64,000 nucleotides of DNA from NCBI RefSeq assembly GCF_019375555.1, contig NZ_JAHXDN010000002.1, positions 620,001-684,000 of the forward strand, read 5' to 3'. Source of the stretch: Roseobacter insulae (GTDB taxonomy: Bacteria > Pseudomonadota > Alphaproteobacteria > Rhodobacterales > Rhodobacteraceae). The position numbers were made by a program, and so were the translations under genes. Shown here piece after piece: positions 57,344-62,430 of this stretch (the first letter of the stretch is position 1; every line of letters starts with the position of its first letter). Below the pieces are notes generated by a model. The model did no database searches and was not told the DNA's origin. It saw only the letters and a list, made by a program, of their open reading frames with translations.

Positions 57344-57420
57344 CGGAGCGTGGCGCAGCCTGGTAGCGCACCTGTTTTGGGTACAGGGGGTCGGAGGTTC
57401 GAATCCTCTCGCTCCGACCA
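57344..57420 (+). tRNA. tRNA-Pro, anticodon TGG
   Basis: 77 nt with encoded CCA. Acceptor stem CGGAGCG (57344-57350) pairs with CGCTCCG (57410-57416). The anticodon stem CCTGT/ACAGG encloses TTTGGGT (57376-57382), anticodon TGG at 57378-57380. T-arm GGTTCGAATCC is present. Confidence 0.97.
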
Positions 57421-57462: not shown

Positions 57463-57987
57463 TCAGGCCAGCAGCGCCCTTGCTTTCCTGATGCGCACGG
57501 CGATCGCCCCCGAGGGGTAGTCCGGCGCAGCAAGCGCAAGCACCCCGAGCGCCTCTTCGCGGTATTCCGGAAACTGATCCGCAAGGAGCGCCAGCGCGAA
57601 ATAGGCCCAGGCAATCACGAGCTTGTTGCTGTCAGCGAGGGACTTGAGCACGAAGGCCTTCACATCCGACCGAAGGGTTCGGGGGACGGCGATGGCCGGC
57701 ATCGTCTGCAGCACATGCAGTTTGGCTTCCCAATGCACCAGCCTGCCGACCCCTCGATAAAACGCATGGCGGTCGTCGTCGGAAAATGATGCCCCGCCTT
57801 TCTCGCAGTGATGCTTGATCAGCCAGGTCGCACCGCGTTCGCACTCTTCACGGCGGCTGCACCGGATCAAGGCGGGCAAAAAATCCTCCTGATGTTGGTA
57901 GCGCTGGTAGATATCGGCGATGTCGGTCGCTGACGTCTGGTCCCAAGGCTCCAGCGCCATCGCCAGATCGGACGAAGATGCGGACAT
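57463..57987 (-). CDS. HEAT-repeat-like protein of unknown function
   Basis: The ATG at 57987 has GGGAG seven bases upstream and is preferred over 57993, giving 174 residues. The sequence is mostly alpha-helical and leucine/alanine-rich with repeating helix pairs (FVLKSLADSNKLVIAWAYFALALLAD), like HEAT-type scaffolds. No catalytic motif, signal peptide or membrane span. The gene reads away from nrdJ; a strong NrdR-like box is 144 bp upstream of its start. I do not recognise the family. Confidence 0.7.
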   Translation of the reverse strand: MSASSSDLAMALEPWDQTSATDIADIYQRYQHQEDFLPALIRCSRREECERGATWLIKHHCEKGGASFSDDDRHAFYRGVGRLVHWEAKLHVLQTMPAIAVPRTLRSDVKAFVLKSLADSNKLVIAWAYFALALLADQFPEYREEALGVLALAAPDYPSGAIAVRIRKARALLA

Positions 57988-58130
57988 TGGCATGCTCCCG
58001 TGTTTTAAGGGCTGGCTGTGAACCCCATAAAAACGTGCGCGCAGGCTCCCGTAAAGGAATCATGCGGGGCCAAGGGGTATCGCGGCTTTGGATTTCGGCA
58101 CTATCGTGCATTTATCCCCTTGCGCGTCTG

Positions 58131-58146
58131 ACACTACATCTTGTGG
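58131..58146. promoter_or_regulatory. NrdR-like box, distal
   Basis: ACACTACATCTTGTGG. Its reverse complement matches 14 of 16 positions of the proximal box at 58564-58579, and it fits the NrdR consensus of paired CACWA/TWGTG half-sites. It could serve either the HEAT-like gene to the left or a second nrdJ promoter. Confidence 0.5.
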
Positions 58147-58307
58147 AGATTTGCTCAGGATAGCCGTGACCTCACCATATCTGGGGAGGTCAAAATTGTC
58201 GGCCCGGCCCAAATCGACACAAAACTGTAACACTCCGTGAGTAGGGATGATGAATCAGCCGTCGCAGCAAAACCAGCGCTTTGGTTGAGCGCCTCCCCAT
58301 GCGCCTC

Positions 58308-58316
58308 TGTGGATAA
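58308..58316 (-). promoter_or_regulatory. DnaA box (perfect consensus)
   Basis: Plus strand TGTGGATAA, reverse complement TTATCCACA, the strict DnaA consensus. It lies about 460 bp upstream of nrdJ. DnaA is known to control the class I nrd genes of E. coli. Confidence 0.55.
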
Positions 58317-58412
58317 ATTCATGTGCTGCATCAGATAGAGCAGCTAAATCAGCCAATCTATTCACTTATTGATGGATCGGCTGAAAGCCGGGGTTCAGGC
58401 ACGGTCTGGGGA

Positions 58413-58431
58413 TATTAACCGCGTGTTAATA
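58413..58431. promoter_or_regulatory. CtrA-type box TTAA-N7-TTAA in a 19-bp palindrome
   Basis: TTAA at 58415-58418 and TTAA at 58426-58429 with exactly seven bases between, the canonical CtrA site. The flanks extend it to TATTAAC/GTTAATA arms of seven with a five-base centre. It lies about 350 bp before the nrdJ start. Confidence 0.6.
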
Positions 58432-58532
58432 AGTTGAATCACGACACCGTGAGCGCTGACTAAAATTCGCCATCCGTCAAGTCGGTAAACTTCAAAAAAA
58501 TTACAAAAATTTCGTTGACCCAATAGGGGTGA

Positions 58533-58579
58533 ATACGTCAGTTTGTGGAGGCCGACGATGGTGCCACAACATGTAGTGG
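58533..58579. promoter_or_regulatory. Tandem NrdR-like boxes
   Basis: CCACAACATGTAGTGG (58564-58579) is a strong 16-bp near-palindrome of NrdR-box form. A second, weaker match (58533-58548, right half TTTGTGG) starts 31 bp upstream, the three-turn spacing typical of paired NrdR boxes. A TTGACC -35-like hexamer sits 12 bp upstream of the first box, so bound NrdR would cover the promoter. Confidence 0.65.
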
Positions 58580-58776
58580 TTAAACGCTCAGGGGCGCATC
58601 GACGGGACAGGGGCAATCAGACGATCTGAATTATCGATCTGGACAAGACCGGCGGCGCCGCAATGCGAGGCGCAGCACAGAGGTCTGCATGCTTCTGACC
58701 GTGGCAACAGGTTGGAGACGCACCGCAATGACGGCAGCGTTTCTTGAATGAAGATGCTGGAAATGAGGCAGCGAAA

Positions 58777-61700
58777 ATGAAAATTGAACGGAAATTCACA
58801 AAAGTAGATCAGGACGCCTACGCAGATCTGGATTTCGTCACTACGGCATCTGAAATTCGTAATCCCGACGGCACTGTCGTGTTCCGCCTTGATGAGGTGG
58901 AGGTTCCCAACGCGTGGAGCCAGGTCGCCAGCGACGTGATTGCGCAGAAATACTTCCGCAAGGCGGGCGTGCCGTCGAAGACCAAGAAGGTCAAAGAGAA
59001 AGGTGTGCCGGAATTCCTGTGGCGCTCGGTACCTGCCGAGGGCGCGGAAATGGGCGGCGAGACCTCCTCCAAGCAGGTCTTTGATCGGTTGGCCGGTGCC
59101 TGGGCCTACTGGGGCTGGAAGGGCGGCTATTTCTCCACCGAGGAGGACGCCCGCGCCTATTTCGACGAGATGCGTCACATGCTGGCCAGCCAGCGCGCCG
59201 CGCCAAACAGCCCGCAGTGGTTCAACACTGGTCTGCACTGGGCATATGGCATCGATGGACCGGCGCAGGGTCACCACTATGTCGACTACAAGACCGGCAA
59301 GCTGACCAAATCAAAATCATCCTACGAACACCCGCAGCCCCATGCCTGCTTTATCCAGTCAGTCTCAGACGACCTCGTAAACGACGGCGGCATCATGGAT
59401 CTGTGGGTTCGGGAAGCCCGTTTGTTCAAGTACGGCTCTGGTACAGGCACCAACTTCTCCTCGCTGCGCGCAGCCGGGGAAAGCCTATCGGGCGGTGGCC
59501 GTTCTTCCGGACTCATGGGCTTCCTGAAAATTGGCGACCGGGCGGCGGGGGCGATCAAATCGGGCGGCACCACGCGCCGCGCGGCCAAGATGGTGATCGT
59601 CGATGCTGATCACCCGGACATTGAGGATTTCATCAACTGGAAGGTCATCGAAGAGCAGAAAGTGGCGAGCATCGTCGCAGGCTCCAAGATGCACGAGCAG
59701 AAGCTCAACGGTCTTTTCGAAGCCATCAGGACATGGGACGGGGCAGAAGCCGACGCCTACGATCCGGCCAAGAATGACGCGCTGAAAACCGCGATCCGTG
59801 CTGCGAAAAAAGTCTCTATCCCCGAGACTTACGTCAAGCGTGTGCTGGATTATGCCAAGCAGGGGCATACCTCGATCGAGTTCCCGACCTACGATACCGA
59901 CTGGGACTCTGAGGCCTACAACTCCGTCTCCGGCCAGAACTCCAACAACTCCATCCGCGTCACCAACGCTTTCCTCACCGCGGTCGAAAAAGATGCGGAC
60001 TGGGAGCTGATCAACCGCGTCGATGGCAAGGTCACCAAGACCGTGAAGGCCCGTGATTTGTGGGAGCAGATTGGCCACGCGGCCTGGGCCTGCGCCGATC
60101 CGGGCATCCAGTACCACGACACGGTGAACGACTGGCACACCTGTCCCGAAGACGGGGCGATCCGCGGCTCCAACCCGTGCTCGGAGTACATGTTCCTTGA
60201 TGACACGGCGTGCAACCTGGCGTCGATGAACCTGCTGACCTTCCTCAAGGAGGGCACCTTCCAGGTCGAAGATTACATCCACGCTGCCCGTCTCTGGACC
60301 GTGACGCTGGAAATCTCTGTTATGATGGCGCAGTTCCCCTCCAAGGAGATCGCGCAACGCTCCTACGACTTCCGCACCCTCGGCCTGGGTTATGCCAACA
60401 TCGGCGGCCTGTTGATGAACATGGGGTACAGCTATGACAGCACGGAAGGTCGTGCCCTGTGCGGGGCGCTGACCGCGATCATGACCGGTGTGTCCTACGC
60501 CACCTCTGCCGAGATGGCGGGCGAGCTTGGGGCCTTCCCGGGCTACGTCAAGAACAGCGCGCACATGCTGCGGGTCATTCGCAATCACCGCATGGCGGCG
60601 CAGGGCAAAACTGACGGGTACGAAGCGCTGGCAGTCAAGCCGGTTGCGCTGGACCACGCAGGCTGCCCGGATCCCAAGCTGATCGAGGTCGCGATTTCCG
60701 CCTGGGACGAGGCGTTGGCGCTTGGCGAAAAGCACGGTTACCGCAATGCGCAGGTCTCTGTGATCGCGCCGACCGGGACAATCGGTCTGGTGATGGATTG
60801 CGACACCACGGGGATTGAACCGGATTTTGCTCTGGTCAAGTTCAAGAAGCTCGCCGGCGGCGGGTATTTCAAGATCATCAACCAGTCGGTGCCGGCCGCG
60901 CTTGAGAAGCTCGGCTACGGCTCGGCCCAGATCGAGGAGATCGTCTCCTACGCCGTGGGTCACGGTACCATCGGCAATGCGCCGGGCATCAACCACACCT
61001 CGCTCGCGGGCCACGGCTTTGGCGCCAATGAGCTGGCGAAAGTGGATGCGGCGCTGGCCTCGGCCTTCGACATCCGGTTCGTCTTCAACCAGTGGACACT
61101 GGGAGAGGAGTTCTGCACGCAAGTCCTTGGCATTCCTGCCGAAAAGCTGAACGATCCAACGTTTGACCTGCTGCGGCACCTTGGGTTCACCAAGGCGGAT
61201 ATCGACGCGGCGAATGACCACGTCTGCGGTACCATGACGCTGGAAGGCGCGCCCTTCCTGAAAGATGAGCATCTGAGCATCTTCGATTGCGCCAACCCCT
61301 GCGGCAAGAAAGGCAAGCGCTTCCTGTCGGTCAACAGCCACATCACCATGATGGCGGCGGCACAAAGCTTCATCTCGGGCGCGATCTCCAAGACCATCAA
61401 TATGCCCAACGATGCGACCATCGAGGATTGCCAGAAAGCCTATGAACTCAGCTGGTCGCTGGGGGTGAAGGCCAACGCGCTCTACCGCGATGGCTCCAAG
61501 CTTTCGCAACCTCTCGCGGCTGCGCTGGTCGAGGATGACGACGACGCGCAGGAGGTGCTCGAAAGCGGCTCGGCGCAGGAGAAAGCCACCGTGCTCGCCG
61601 AGAAGATCGTCGAGAAGGTGATCGTCAAGGAAATTGTCAAGTCGCACCGCGAGAAGATGCCGCAGCGGCGCAAGGGCTACACCCAAAAGGCCATCGTCGG

Positions 61701-62430
61701 CGGCCACAAGGTCTATCTGCGCACCGGCGAATATGAAGACGGCAATCTGGGTGAAATTTTCATCGACATGCACAAGGAAGGGGCTGGTTTCCGGGCGATG
61801 ATGAACAACTTCGCCATCGCGGTCTCGGTCGGTCTGCAATACGGCGTGCCGCTGGAGGAGTTCGTCGATGCCTTCACCTTCACCAAATTCGAGCCCGCGG
61901 GCATGGTGCAGGGCAATGAGACGATCAAGAACGCGACTTCGATCCTCGATTACGTGTTCCGGGAACTGGCGGTCAGCTACCTCGACCGCACCGATCTGGC
62001 GCATGTGCAGCCCGAGGGTCACACCTTCGACGATCTGGGCCGGGGTGAGGAAGAGGGGGTGAGCAATGTCTCGGAACTCTCTGAAACCGCTGCCACAAAA
62101 TCGCTTGAGGTGCTGAAACAGATCAGCTCCACCGGGTACCTGCGCAAACGCCTGCCACAGGAACTGGTGGTGCTGCAGGGCGGCCAGCAGGGCTTTGCGG
62201 AACAGGCGGTCGCCTTCGACGGGCTCGCCCCGGTTGCCGAAGGCAGCGTTGCGGTCGCCATGGCGACAACGGCGGTCGCCAGCGGATCGGTCAGCATGGA
62301 CGCCCGCACAAAGGCCAAAATGCAGGGCTACGAGGGCGAGGCCTGCGGCGAATGCGGCAACTACACGCTGGTGCGCAACGGCACCTGCATGAAATGCAAC
62401 ACCTGCGGCGGAACGTCCGGGTGTAGCTAA
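58777..62430 (+). CDS. nrdJ: Class II (adenosylcobalamin-dependent) ribonucleoside-diphosphate reductase
   Basis: From ATG 58777 ([15 protein letters not shown]) the product is 1217 residues, the long NrdJ form. Substrate and radical regions include [36 protein letters not shown] and [19 protein letters not shown]. The extreme C-terminus carries [10 protein letters not shown] and CMKCNTCGG, cysteine pairs for metal binding or redox shuttling. It makes deoxyribonucleotides using a cobalamin-generated thiyl radical, so it needs B12 but no oxygen. The frame to 58744 is rejected as lacking a ribosome site. Upstream DNA has DnaA, CtrA and NrdR-like sites. Confidence 0.97.

Follow-up and report, generated by a model that had tools for sequence, protein, structure and literature searches.

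Candidate NrdR, DnaA and CtrA-type inputs upstream of the class II ribonucleotide reductase gene nrdJ in Roseobacter insulae and its relatives

NrdR boxes are 16-bp palindromes, and tandem boxes lie about integral helical turns apart; Rodionov and Gelfand reportedly defined them by comparative genomics in 2005. The DnaA regulon of Caulobacter is said to have been described by Hottes and co-workers in 2005, and nrdB is a class I ribonucleotide reductase (RNR) gene. Control of nrd genes by DnaA is already known, both in E. coli and at Caulobacter nrdB (PMC11317965, PMC3193534). According to the available text of two reports, the E. coli promoters of nrdAB, and also of nrdDG, are acted on by both DnaA and NrdR (PMC11317965, PMC2500167). 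ChIP-seq places DnaA upstream of nrdA and nrdD, and nrdA is listed as positively regulated by DnaA (PMC11317965), whereas repression of nrdAB by DnaA is argued in PMC2500167, where a repeat near the nrdAB boxes is a possible NrdR target. The E. coli enzymes belong to classes I and III and the DnaA box there is double, while the enzymes considered here belong to class II and their strict boxes are mostly single; the present system further differs in that nrdJ has two NrdR pairs and nrdR a DnaA box of its own. The Caulobacter crescentus DnaA regulon includes nrdB and mipZ, making nrdB an alphaproteobacterial RNR gene under direct DnaA control, but the available text names no link to nrdR or CtrA (PMC3193534). 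In Pseudomonas aeruginosa each RNR promoter carries two NrdR boxes, box 1 lying over the -10, and the class II gene nrdJ has a tandem NrdR pair arranged much as described below; in contrast to our locus, no DnaA or CtrA element is described in the text available to us (PMC4409342). Neither at nrdJ nor at nrdR did we find DnaA sites reported for alphaproteobacteria within the accessible portions of the open-licence literature, and nrd terms are absent from the available text of PMC4287350.

The stretch of DNA that we analysed (the window) comprises 64 kb of the Roseobacter insulae genome. It holds nrdJ, encoding a class II (B12-dependent) RNR of 1217 aa (58777-62430, plus strand; PF08471, PF02867, PF12637), and directly 5' of its ATG at 58777 a gap of 789 bp (57988-58776). 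The upstream neighbour, a minus-strand open reading frame at 57463-57993, matched no Pfam family, and upstream of this divergent frame lies a tRNA gene (57344-57417; Rfam RF00005, 62.3 bits). The GC content of the gap is 52%, against 62% for the genome (4.88 Mb in 17 contigs). A DnaA box, a CtrA-type palindrome and two NrdR boxes had been placed in this gap by the first-pass annotation, and all of them lie where it put them or within 1 base. A motif count also bears out its remark that the strict DnaA box and the TTAA-N7-TTAA site each occur as a single exact copy in the window. Genome-wide there are 27 copies of the strict DnaA box TTATCCACA, 28 of TTAA-N7-TTAA and 7 places with the NrdR core CACNANATNTNGTG, so that 789 bp at genome density would hold about 0.004, 0.005 and 0.001 of these respectively; because the gap is AT-richer than the genome, the figures for TTATCCACA and TTAA-N7-TTAA are underestimates. 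Several of the strict DnaA boxes occur in or near genes with no evident link to replication, such as those for nitrile hydratase, a P450 and lactate racemase. The reading that we favour, and hold to be rather probable from the arrangement of sites, is that the gap is a multi-input control region in which NrdR and DnaA act, within a circuit that includes nrdR and a second RNR gene, together with a CtrA-type input in this genus.

For comparison, 900 bp upstream of nrdJ were aligned from 17 genomes of the genus, the source genome included. A set from other genera consists of the best 80 of at least 596 matches, less L078 (a match without a start) and L001 (which duplicates L089), leaving n=78. 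Main counts cover -800 to -1; their background came from 365 flank windows and from shuffling the same sequences 20 times with dinucleotide composition preserved. The counts carry no tree correction, the 17 genus loci sharing ancestry and not being independent, and the 78 other-genus loci also being related. Control promoters were those of other genes in the same nrdJ loci (n=170 for 300 bp, n=154 for 500 bp). The 500-bp control windows probably contain more coding DNA than the nrdJ gap, and the shuffle is therefore the composition-matched control. Other alphaproteobacterial families are represented by a separate set of eight loci (L098-L105), which show a strict DnaA box in 1/8, an NrdR box of at least 15/16 in 3/8 and a CtrA-type site in 0/8.

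No feature of the nrdJ region is stronger or more widely conserved than its NrdR boxes. Box 1, ATACGTCAGTTTGTGG (58533-58548, plus strand), and box 2, CCACAACATGTAGTGG (58564-58579), start 31 bp apart and form a tandem pair over a putative promoter. Within the promoter block CGTTGACC, a putative -35, TTGACC (58515-58520, plus strand), is followed by box 1 at the expected -10 position, and the -10 itself is non-canonical. Box 2 is present in 17/17 genus loci, and in the other genera at 14/16 or better between -300 and -100 in 46/78. A proximal box of at least 13/16 occurs in 64 of the 78 other-genus loci (shuffle mean 4.1), and the consensus of these 64 displays the -35 as well as both boxes. 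At the threshold of 15/16 the count is 33/78, with a shuffle mean of 0.00 and 0/365 flank windows, and among the genus loci 17/17, again with a shuffle mean of 0.00. NrdR itself is encoded in the genome (TIGR00244, 163.1 bits, cut-off 124.65). Repression of nrdJ by NrdR, which the likeness to the P. aeruginosa arrangement favours, is the best supported step of the mechanism that we propose: the promoter, its -10 hidden in box 1, would be repressed by NrdR bound to the tandem pair.

Two of the seven CACNANATNTNGTG places of the genome lie in the nrdJ gap, at 58565-58578 and at 58132-58145. The latter belongs to a distal NrdR pair, which the first-pass annotation had missed. Distal box 3, ACACTACATCTTGTGG (58131-58146), is found at 13/16 or better between -634 and -648 in 15/17 genus loci; its NrdR-like partner, box 4 (58172-58187), was recognised in the alignment within a near-palindrome at 58171-58188. 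The two are 41 bp apart, and the pair recurs in 15/17 genus loci at nearly constant spacing; in the genus relative L085 the partner lies within the perfect palindrome CTCCCCATATATGGGGAG. Distal boxes of at least 14/16 (-800 to -300) occur in 11/17 genus loci (shuffle 0.30) and 13/78 other-genus loci (shuffle 0.75; flanks 1/365). This second pair, about 400 bp upstream on a conserved element, might serve a second promoter or act as a looping partner. In L088 and L094-L097, what by eye appears to be the same tRNA lies directly before the nrdJ control region. A divergent gene was rejected as the general explanation of the distal pair, since in these loci the apparent tRNA and not an open reading frame precedes the pair and the pair is retained. 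Elsewhere in the genome the cell-division gene mipZ (PF09140) has an NrdR-type palindrome, CACCACATATAGTG, 63 bp ahead of its presumed start (L118 position 994, G000:C12:367193-367206); no clear partner box was seen by eye, and it may be there by chance.

We infer that transcription of nrdJ would start near 58548, giving an expected 5' leader of about 228 nt (58549-58776, plus strand). Such a leader, with its conserved stretches, could in principle hold a B12 riboswitch or another RNA element controlling nrdJ, and a consensus fold of 17 leaders does score below column shuffles (z about -10); yet the covariation term of +1.06 gives it no support and four single folds differ. A conserved leader structure was dropped for want of covariation. 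An Rfam scan of the leader gave no match at the gathering score and, with E up to 10, two weak snoRNA matches; a cobalamin riboswitch or other known leader RNA was accordingly rejected, and we regard control by leader RNA as very improbable.

The strict DnaA box of the window, TTATCCACA, lies on the minus strand at 58308-58316. In the aligned genus loci the exact box is found at the same place in 3/17 and its TGTGG core in 13/17, so that the region is conserved and not that exact box; a strict box anywhere in the -800 to -1 range occurs in 4/17 (shuffle 0.15). Among the other genera it is found in 24/78, against a shuffle mean of 0.30 and 1/365 flank windows, and is missing within 800 bp in 54/78. 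Within 500 bp upstream of nrdJ the count is 22/78 against 0/154 control promoters (Fisher p 4e-12); narrowing the range to 300 bp leaves just 4/78 against 0/170. A broader control set, which included nrdR loci with the nrdR promoters only loosely excluded, had a strict box in 6/204. In other genera the distance between the strict boxes and NrdR box 2 ranges from 57 to 450 bp, and the boxes are seen in either orientation. A DnaA-like sequence, TGGGGATAT (58407-58415), overlaps the CtrA-type palindrome of the window, and TGTGGATAT or TGTGGATAA occurs there in 7/17 genus loci. The genome encodes DnaA (TIGR00362, 552.4 bits, cut-off 343.9). A point against is that in E. coli, according to available text, only 13 of 32 single consensus boxes were associated with DnaA binding (PMC11317965). 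Action of DnaA at nrdJ, by activation or by repression, is probable, judged from the sites, and DnaA bound upstream would couple nrdJ expression to replication initiation.

It could be argued that NrdR alone matters, nrdJ having an ordinary NrdR-repressed promoter with DnaA-like and CtrA-like words that are incidental in AT-rich DNA. The rank of the NrdR boxes as the most conserved feature and the exact DnaA box at one place in just 3 of 17 genus loci agree with this. However, shuffles that preserve dinucleotide composition, and the control promoters, yield far fewer strict boxes than the nrdJ loci of other genera, and this box turns up again before nrdR and before a second RNR gene. We consider it quite improbable that NrdR is the whole explanation. 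The premise of the first-pass annotation that the motifs should be denser here than at random intergenic positions withstood the genome scan and the comparison with shuffles and flanks, DnaA and NrdR sites being enriched. Its other refuting condition, lack of conservation in related genomes, did not apply either, but conservation is uneven: it holds across the family for NrdR and regionally for DnaA, but not for the exact DnaA box and, outside the genus, for few CtrA-type sites.

The recurrence of the DnaA box at other genes of the pathway had escaped the first-pass annotation. In the source genome a strict box lies 62 bp before nrdR, one base after a -10-like CCTATAA. It is exact in 7/11 genus genomes, near forms being visible in the other four, and is found in 14/30 other genera (the best 30 of 77 hits) against 1/299 background windows. 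It is missing in the remaining 16/30, and none was found in 7/7 nrdR loci from other alphaproteobacterial families. In 14/14 of the positive other-genus loci exactly four bases separate CCTATA(G/A) from TGTGGATAA. With this fixed spacing the box covers the point where nrdR transcription is expected to begin, a position that argues for repression.

Besides nrdJ the genome has two class II RNR genes (TIGR02504; L120 1130-2854 and L114 1090-3429). The second RNR, of 779 aa, has a strict DnaA box 86 bp before the presumed start of its reading frame. This box is found in the source genome and 11/16 genus relatives, and in 8/29 other genera (counted from the best 30 of a longer list) against 0/180 windows; 21/29 have none. 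In many of these loci an NrdR-like pair 31 bp apart stands beside the box, the pair of the source genome being weak (22/32). The third, shorter enzyme (574 aa) has a TTAA-N7-TTAA site at -46 in the source genome, and of 9 genus relatives examined 6 have one to three such sites and 3 have none. As a rough estimate, 27 boxes give a probability of about 0.003 that any one gene has a box in the 500 bp before it, and boxes at three of the four genes (nrdJ, nrdR and the two other class II RNR genes) would have a chance of the order of 1e-7, a figure that is optimistic by perhaps two or more orders of magnitude, the genes having been picked afterwards and boxes possibly favouring non-coding DNA.

DnaA boxes need not control transcription; they might be titration or other replication-related sites, datA-like or DARS-like. 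At nrdJ the boxes shift in place and strand between genera, as is expected of a titration site, and E. coli has such sites beside genes (PMC11317965, available text). The single fixed place of the nrdR box after its -10-like sequence speaks against it, and titration sites would not be expected to recur at three genes that share a pathway. We therefore judge a titration role unlikely and keep to control of transcription as the working interpretation.

The CtrA-type element is a perfect 19-bp inverted repeat (7+5+7), TATTAAC-CGCGT-GTTAATA, at 58413-58431, containing TTAACCGCGTGTTAA (58415-58429), the window's one TTAA-N7-TTAA; the longer form TTAA-N7-TTAAC has 0 copies in the 64 kb. Exact TTAA-N7-TTAA is present in 14/17 genus loci (shuffle 0.05) and in 6/78 loci of other genera (shuffle 0.80; flanks 1/365), the latter all within 500 bp and set against 1/154 control promoters (p 0.006). 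Three of these six lie about 100 bp farther from NrdR box 2 than the genus sites do. The site at nrdJ is thus mainly a genus feature. The usual genus form is a composite, T(G/T)GGATATTAACC-N4-GTTAA then TTGAATC, whose DnaA-like half and CtrA-type site overlap; a loose pattern finds it in 15/17 genus loci, its distance to NrdR box 2 being 146 to 157 bp. The GAATC that follows (58436-58440, plus strand), a GANTC (CcrM-type) site, is present in 17/17 aligned genus loci. GANTC has 114 matches in the window on both strands, and a GcrA gene is present. Since TTGAATC in other genera is no commoner than in the shuffles (8/78; shuffle mean 8.45; flanks 18/365), control by GANTC and GcrA was rejected as a family-wide feature.

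Is this element a CtrA site? The genome encodes a Rhodobacterales CtrA (NF045991, 426.1 bits, cut-off 350). Some of the 28 genomic TTAA-N7-TTAA sites stand where CtrA sites would be plausible, among them the place where murB ends ahead of a D-Ala ligase gene, the region upstream of a PAS-domain gene and the putative oriC. In available text of PMC9437464, TTAA-N7-TTAA is described as the palindromic motif of CtrA, and sites of this kind are reported to be bound. Alternatively, the palindrome could be the operator of some other dimeric regulator: TTAAC-N5-GTTAA is an inverted repeat, while the CtrA consensus used for Dinoroseobacter shibae is TTAA-N7-TTAAC (PMC4046655); the usual genus form is TTAACC-N4-GTTAA; the site is patchy outside the genus; and nrd genes are unnamed in the available main text of two D. 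shibae CtrA papers (PMC4046655, PMC6473078). In view of the encoded CtrA and the sites shared with other plausible targets we find a different regulator doubtful, though the least doubtful of the alternatives, and a CtrA layer at nrdJ, mostly local to the genus, plausible. The idea of three inputs at one locus stands as regards the sites, which are real, and falls short as regards the exact DnaA box, which few genus loci keep at its aligned place, and the CtrA-type site, which is mainly a genus feature.

In this genus the CtrA-type site merges with a DnaA-like half and precedes a GANTC site, an arrangement that may provide a lineage-specific cell-cycle or differentiation input, perhaps through competition between CtrA and DnaA. 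At the Caulobacter oriC, according to available text, CtrA keeps DnaA off, and CtrA and DnaA sites are adjacent and act in opposition (PMC12186491, PMC8116508). That locus, unlike ours, is a replication origin and not a promoter, and the overlap at nrdJ is known from sequence alone. Elsewhere in the genome a DnaA box and TTAA-N7-TTAA come within 200 bp of each other at the putative oriC, next to xthA and near a gene for plasmid replication. The possible oriC is an AT-richer gap between shikimate dehydrogenase and hemJ-rho (L112 1079-2077, G000:C1 about 578578-579576), where the single strict DnaA box found lies 14 bp from a TTAA-N7-TTAA site. Two strict DnaA boxes and one TTAA-N7-TTAA lie between the exonuclease III gene xthA and a DUF6902 gene (L111 7640-7790, G000:C10:701153-701259), one of the boxes being 7 bp from the CtrA-type site. 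In L113 (2254-2452, G000:C3) a TTAA-N7-TTAA and a strict DnaA box stand upstream of a plasmid-type replication initiator gene (PF10134).

Our best reading is that dNTP supply in Rhodobacterales is under the joint control of DnaA and NrdR, with CtrA as a lineage-specific layer. In the circuit that we infer from the placement of the boxes, DnaA would act on RNR promoters and shut off nrdR, which encodes the repressor of those promoters; in this way active DnaA would raise dNTP supply by two routes. More tentatively, and with less confidence than we place in the multi-input control region, DnaA could throw a double switch, acting on two class II RNR promoters while simultaneously repressing nrdR over its start, with CtrA competing at the nrdJ element in one genus. 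If this were true, DnaA would control both the enzyme and the enzyme's sensor-repressor. DnaA regulation is known for class I and III RNR genes in E. coli and for nrdB in Caulobacter, its sign being disputed; many Rhodobacterales keep DnaA boxes at class II nrdJ, at the second class II RNR and at nrdR. Boxes at all three gene types make the coupling between replication initiation and dNTP supply testable in laboratory roseobacters, and nrdR offers a clean target, since the position of its box is fixed and the only sign predicted from it is repression.
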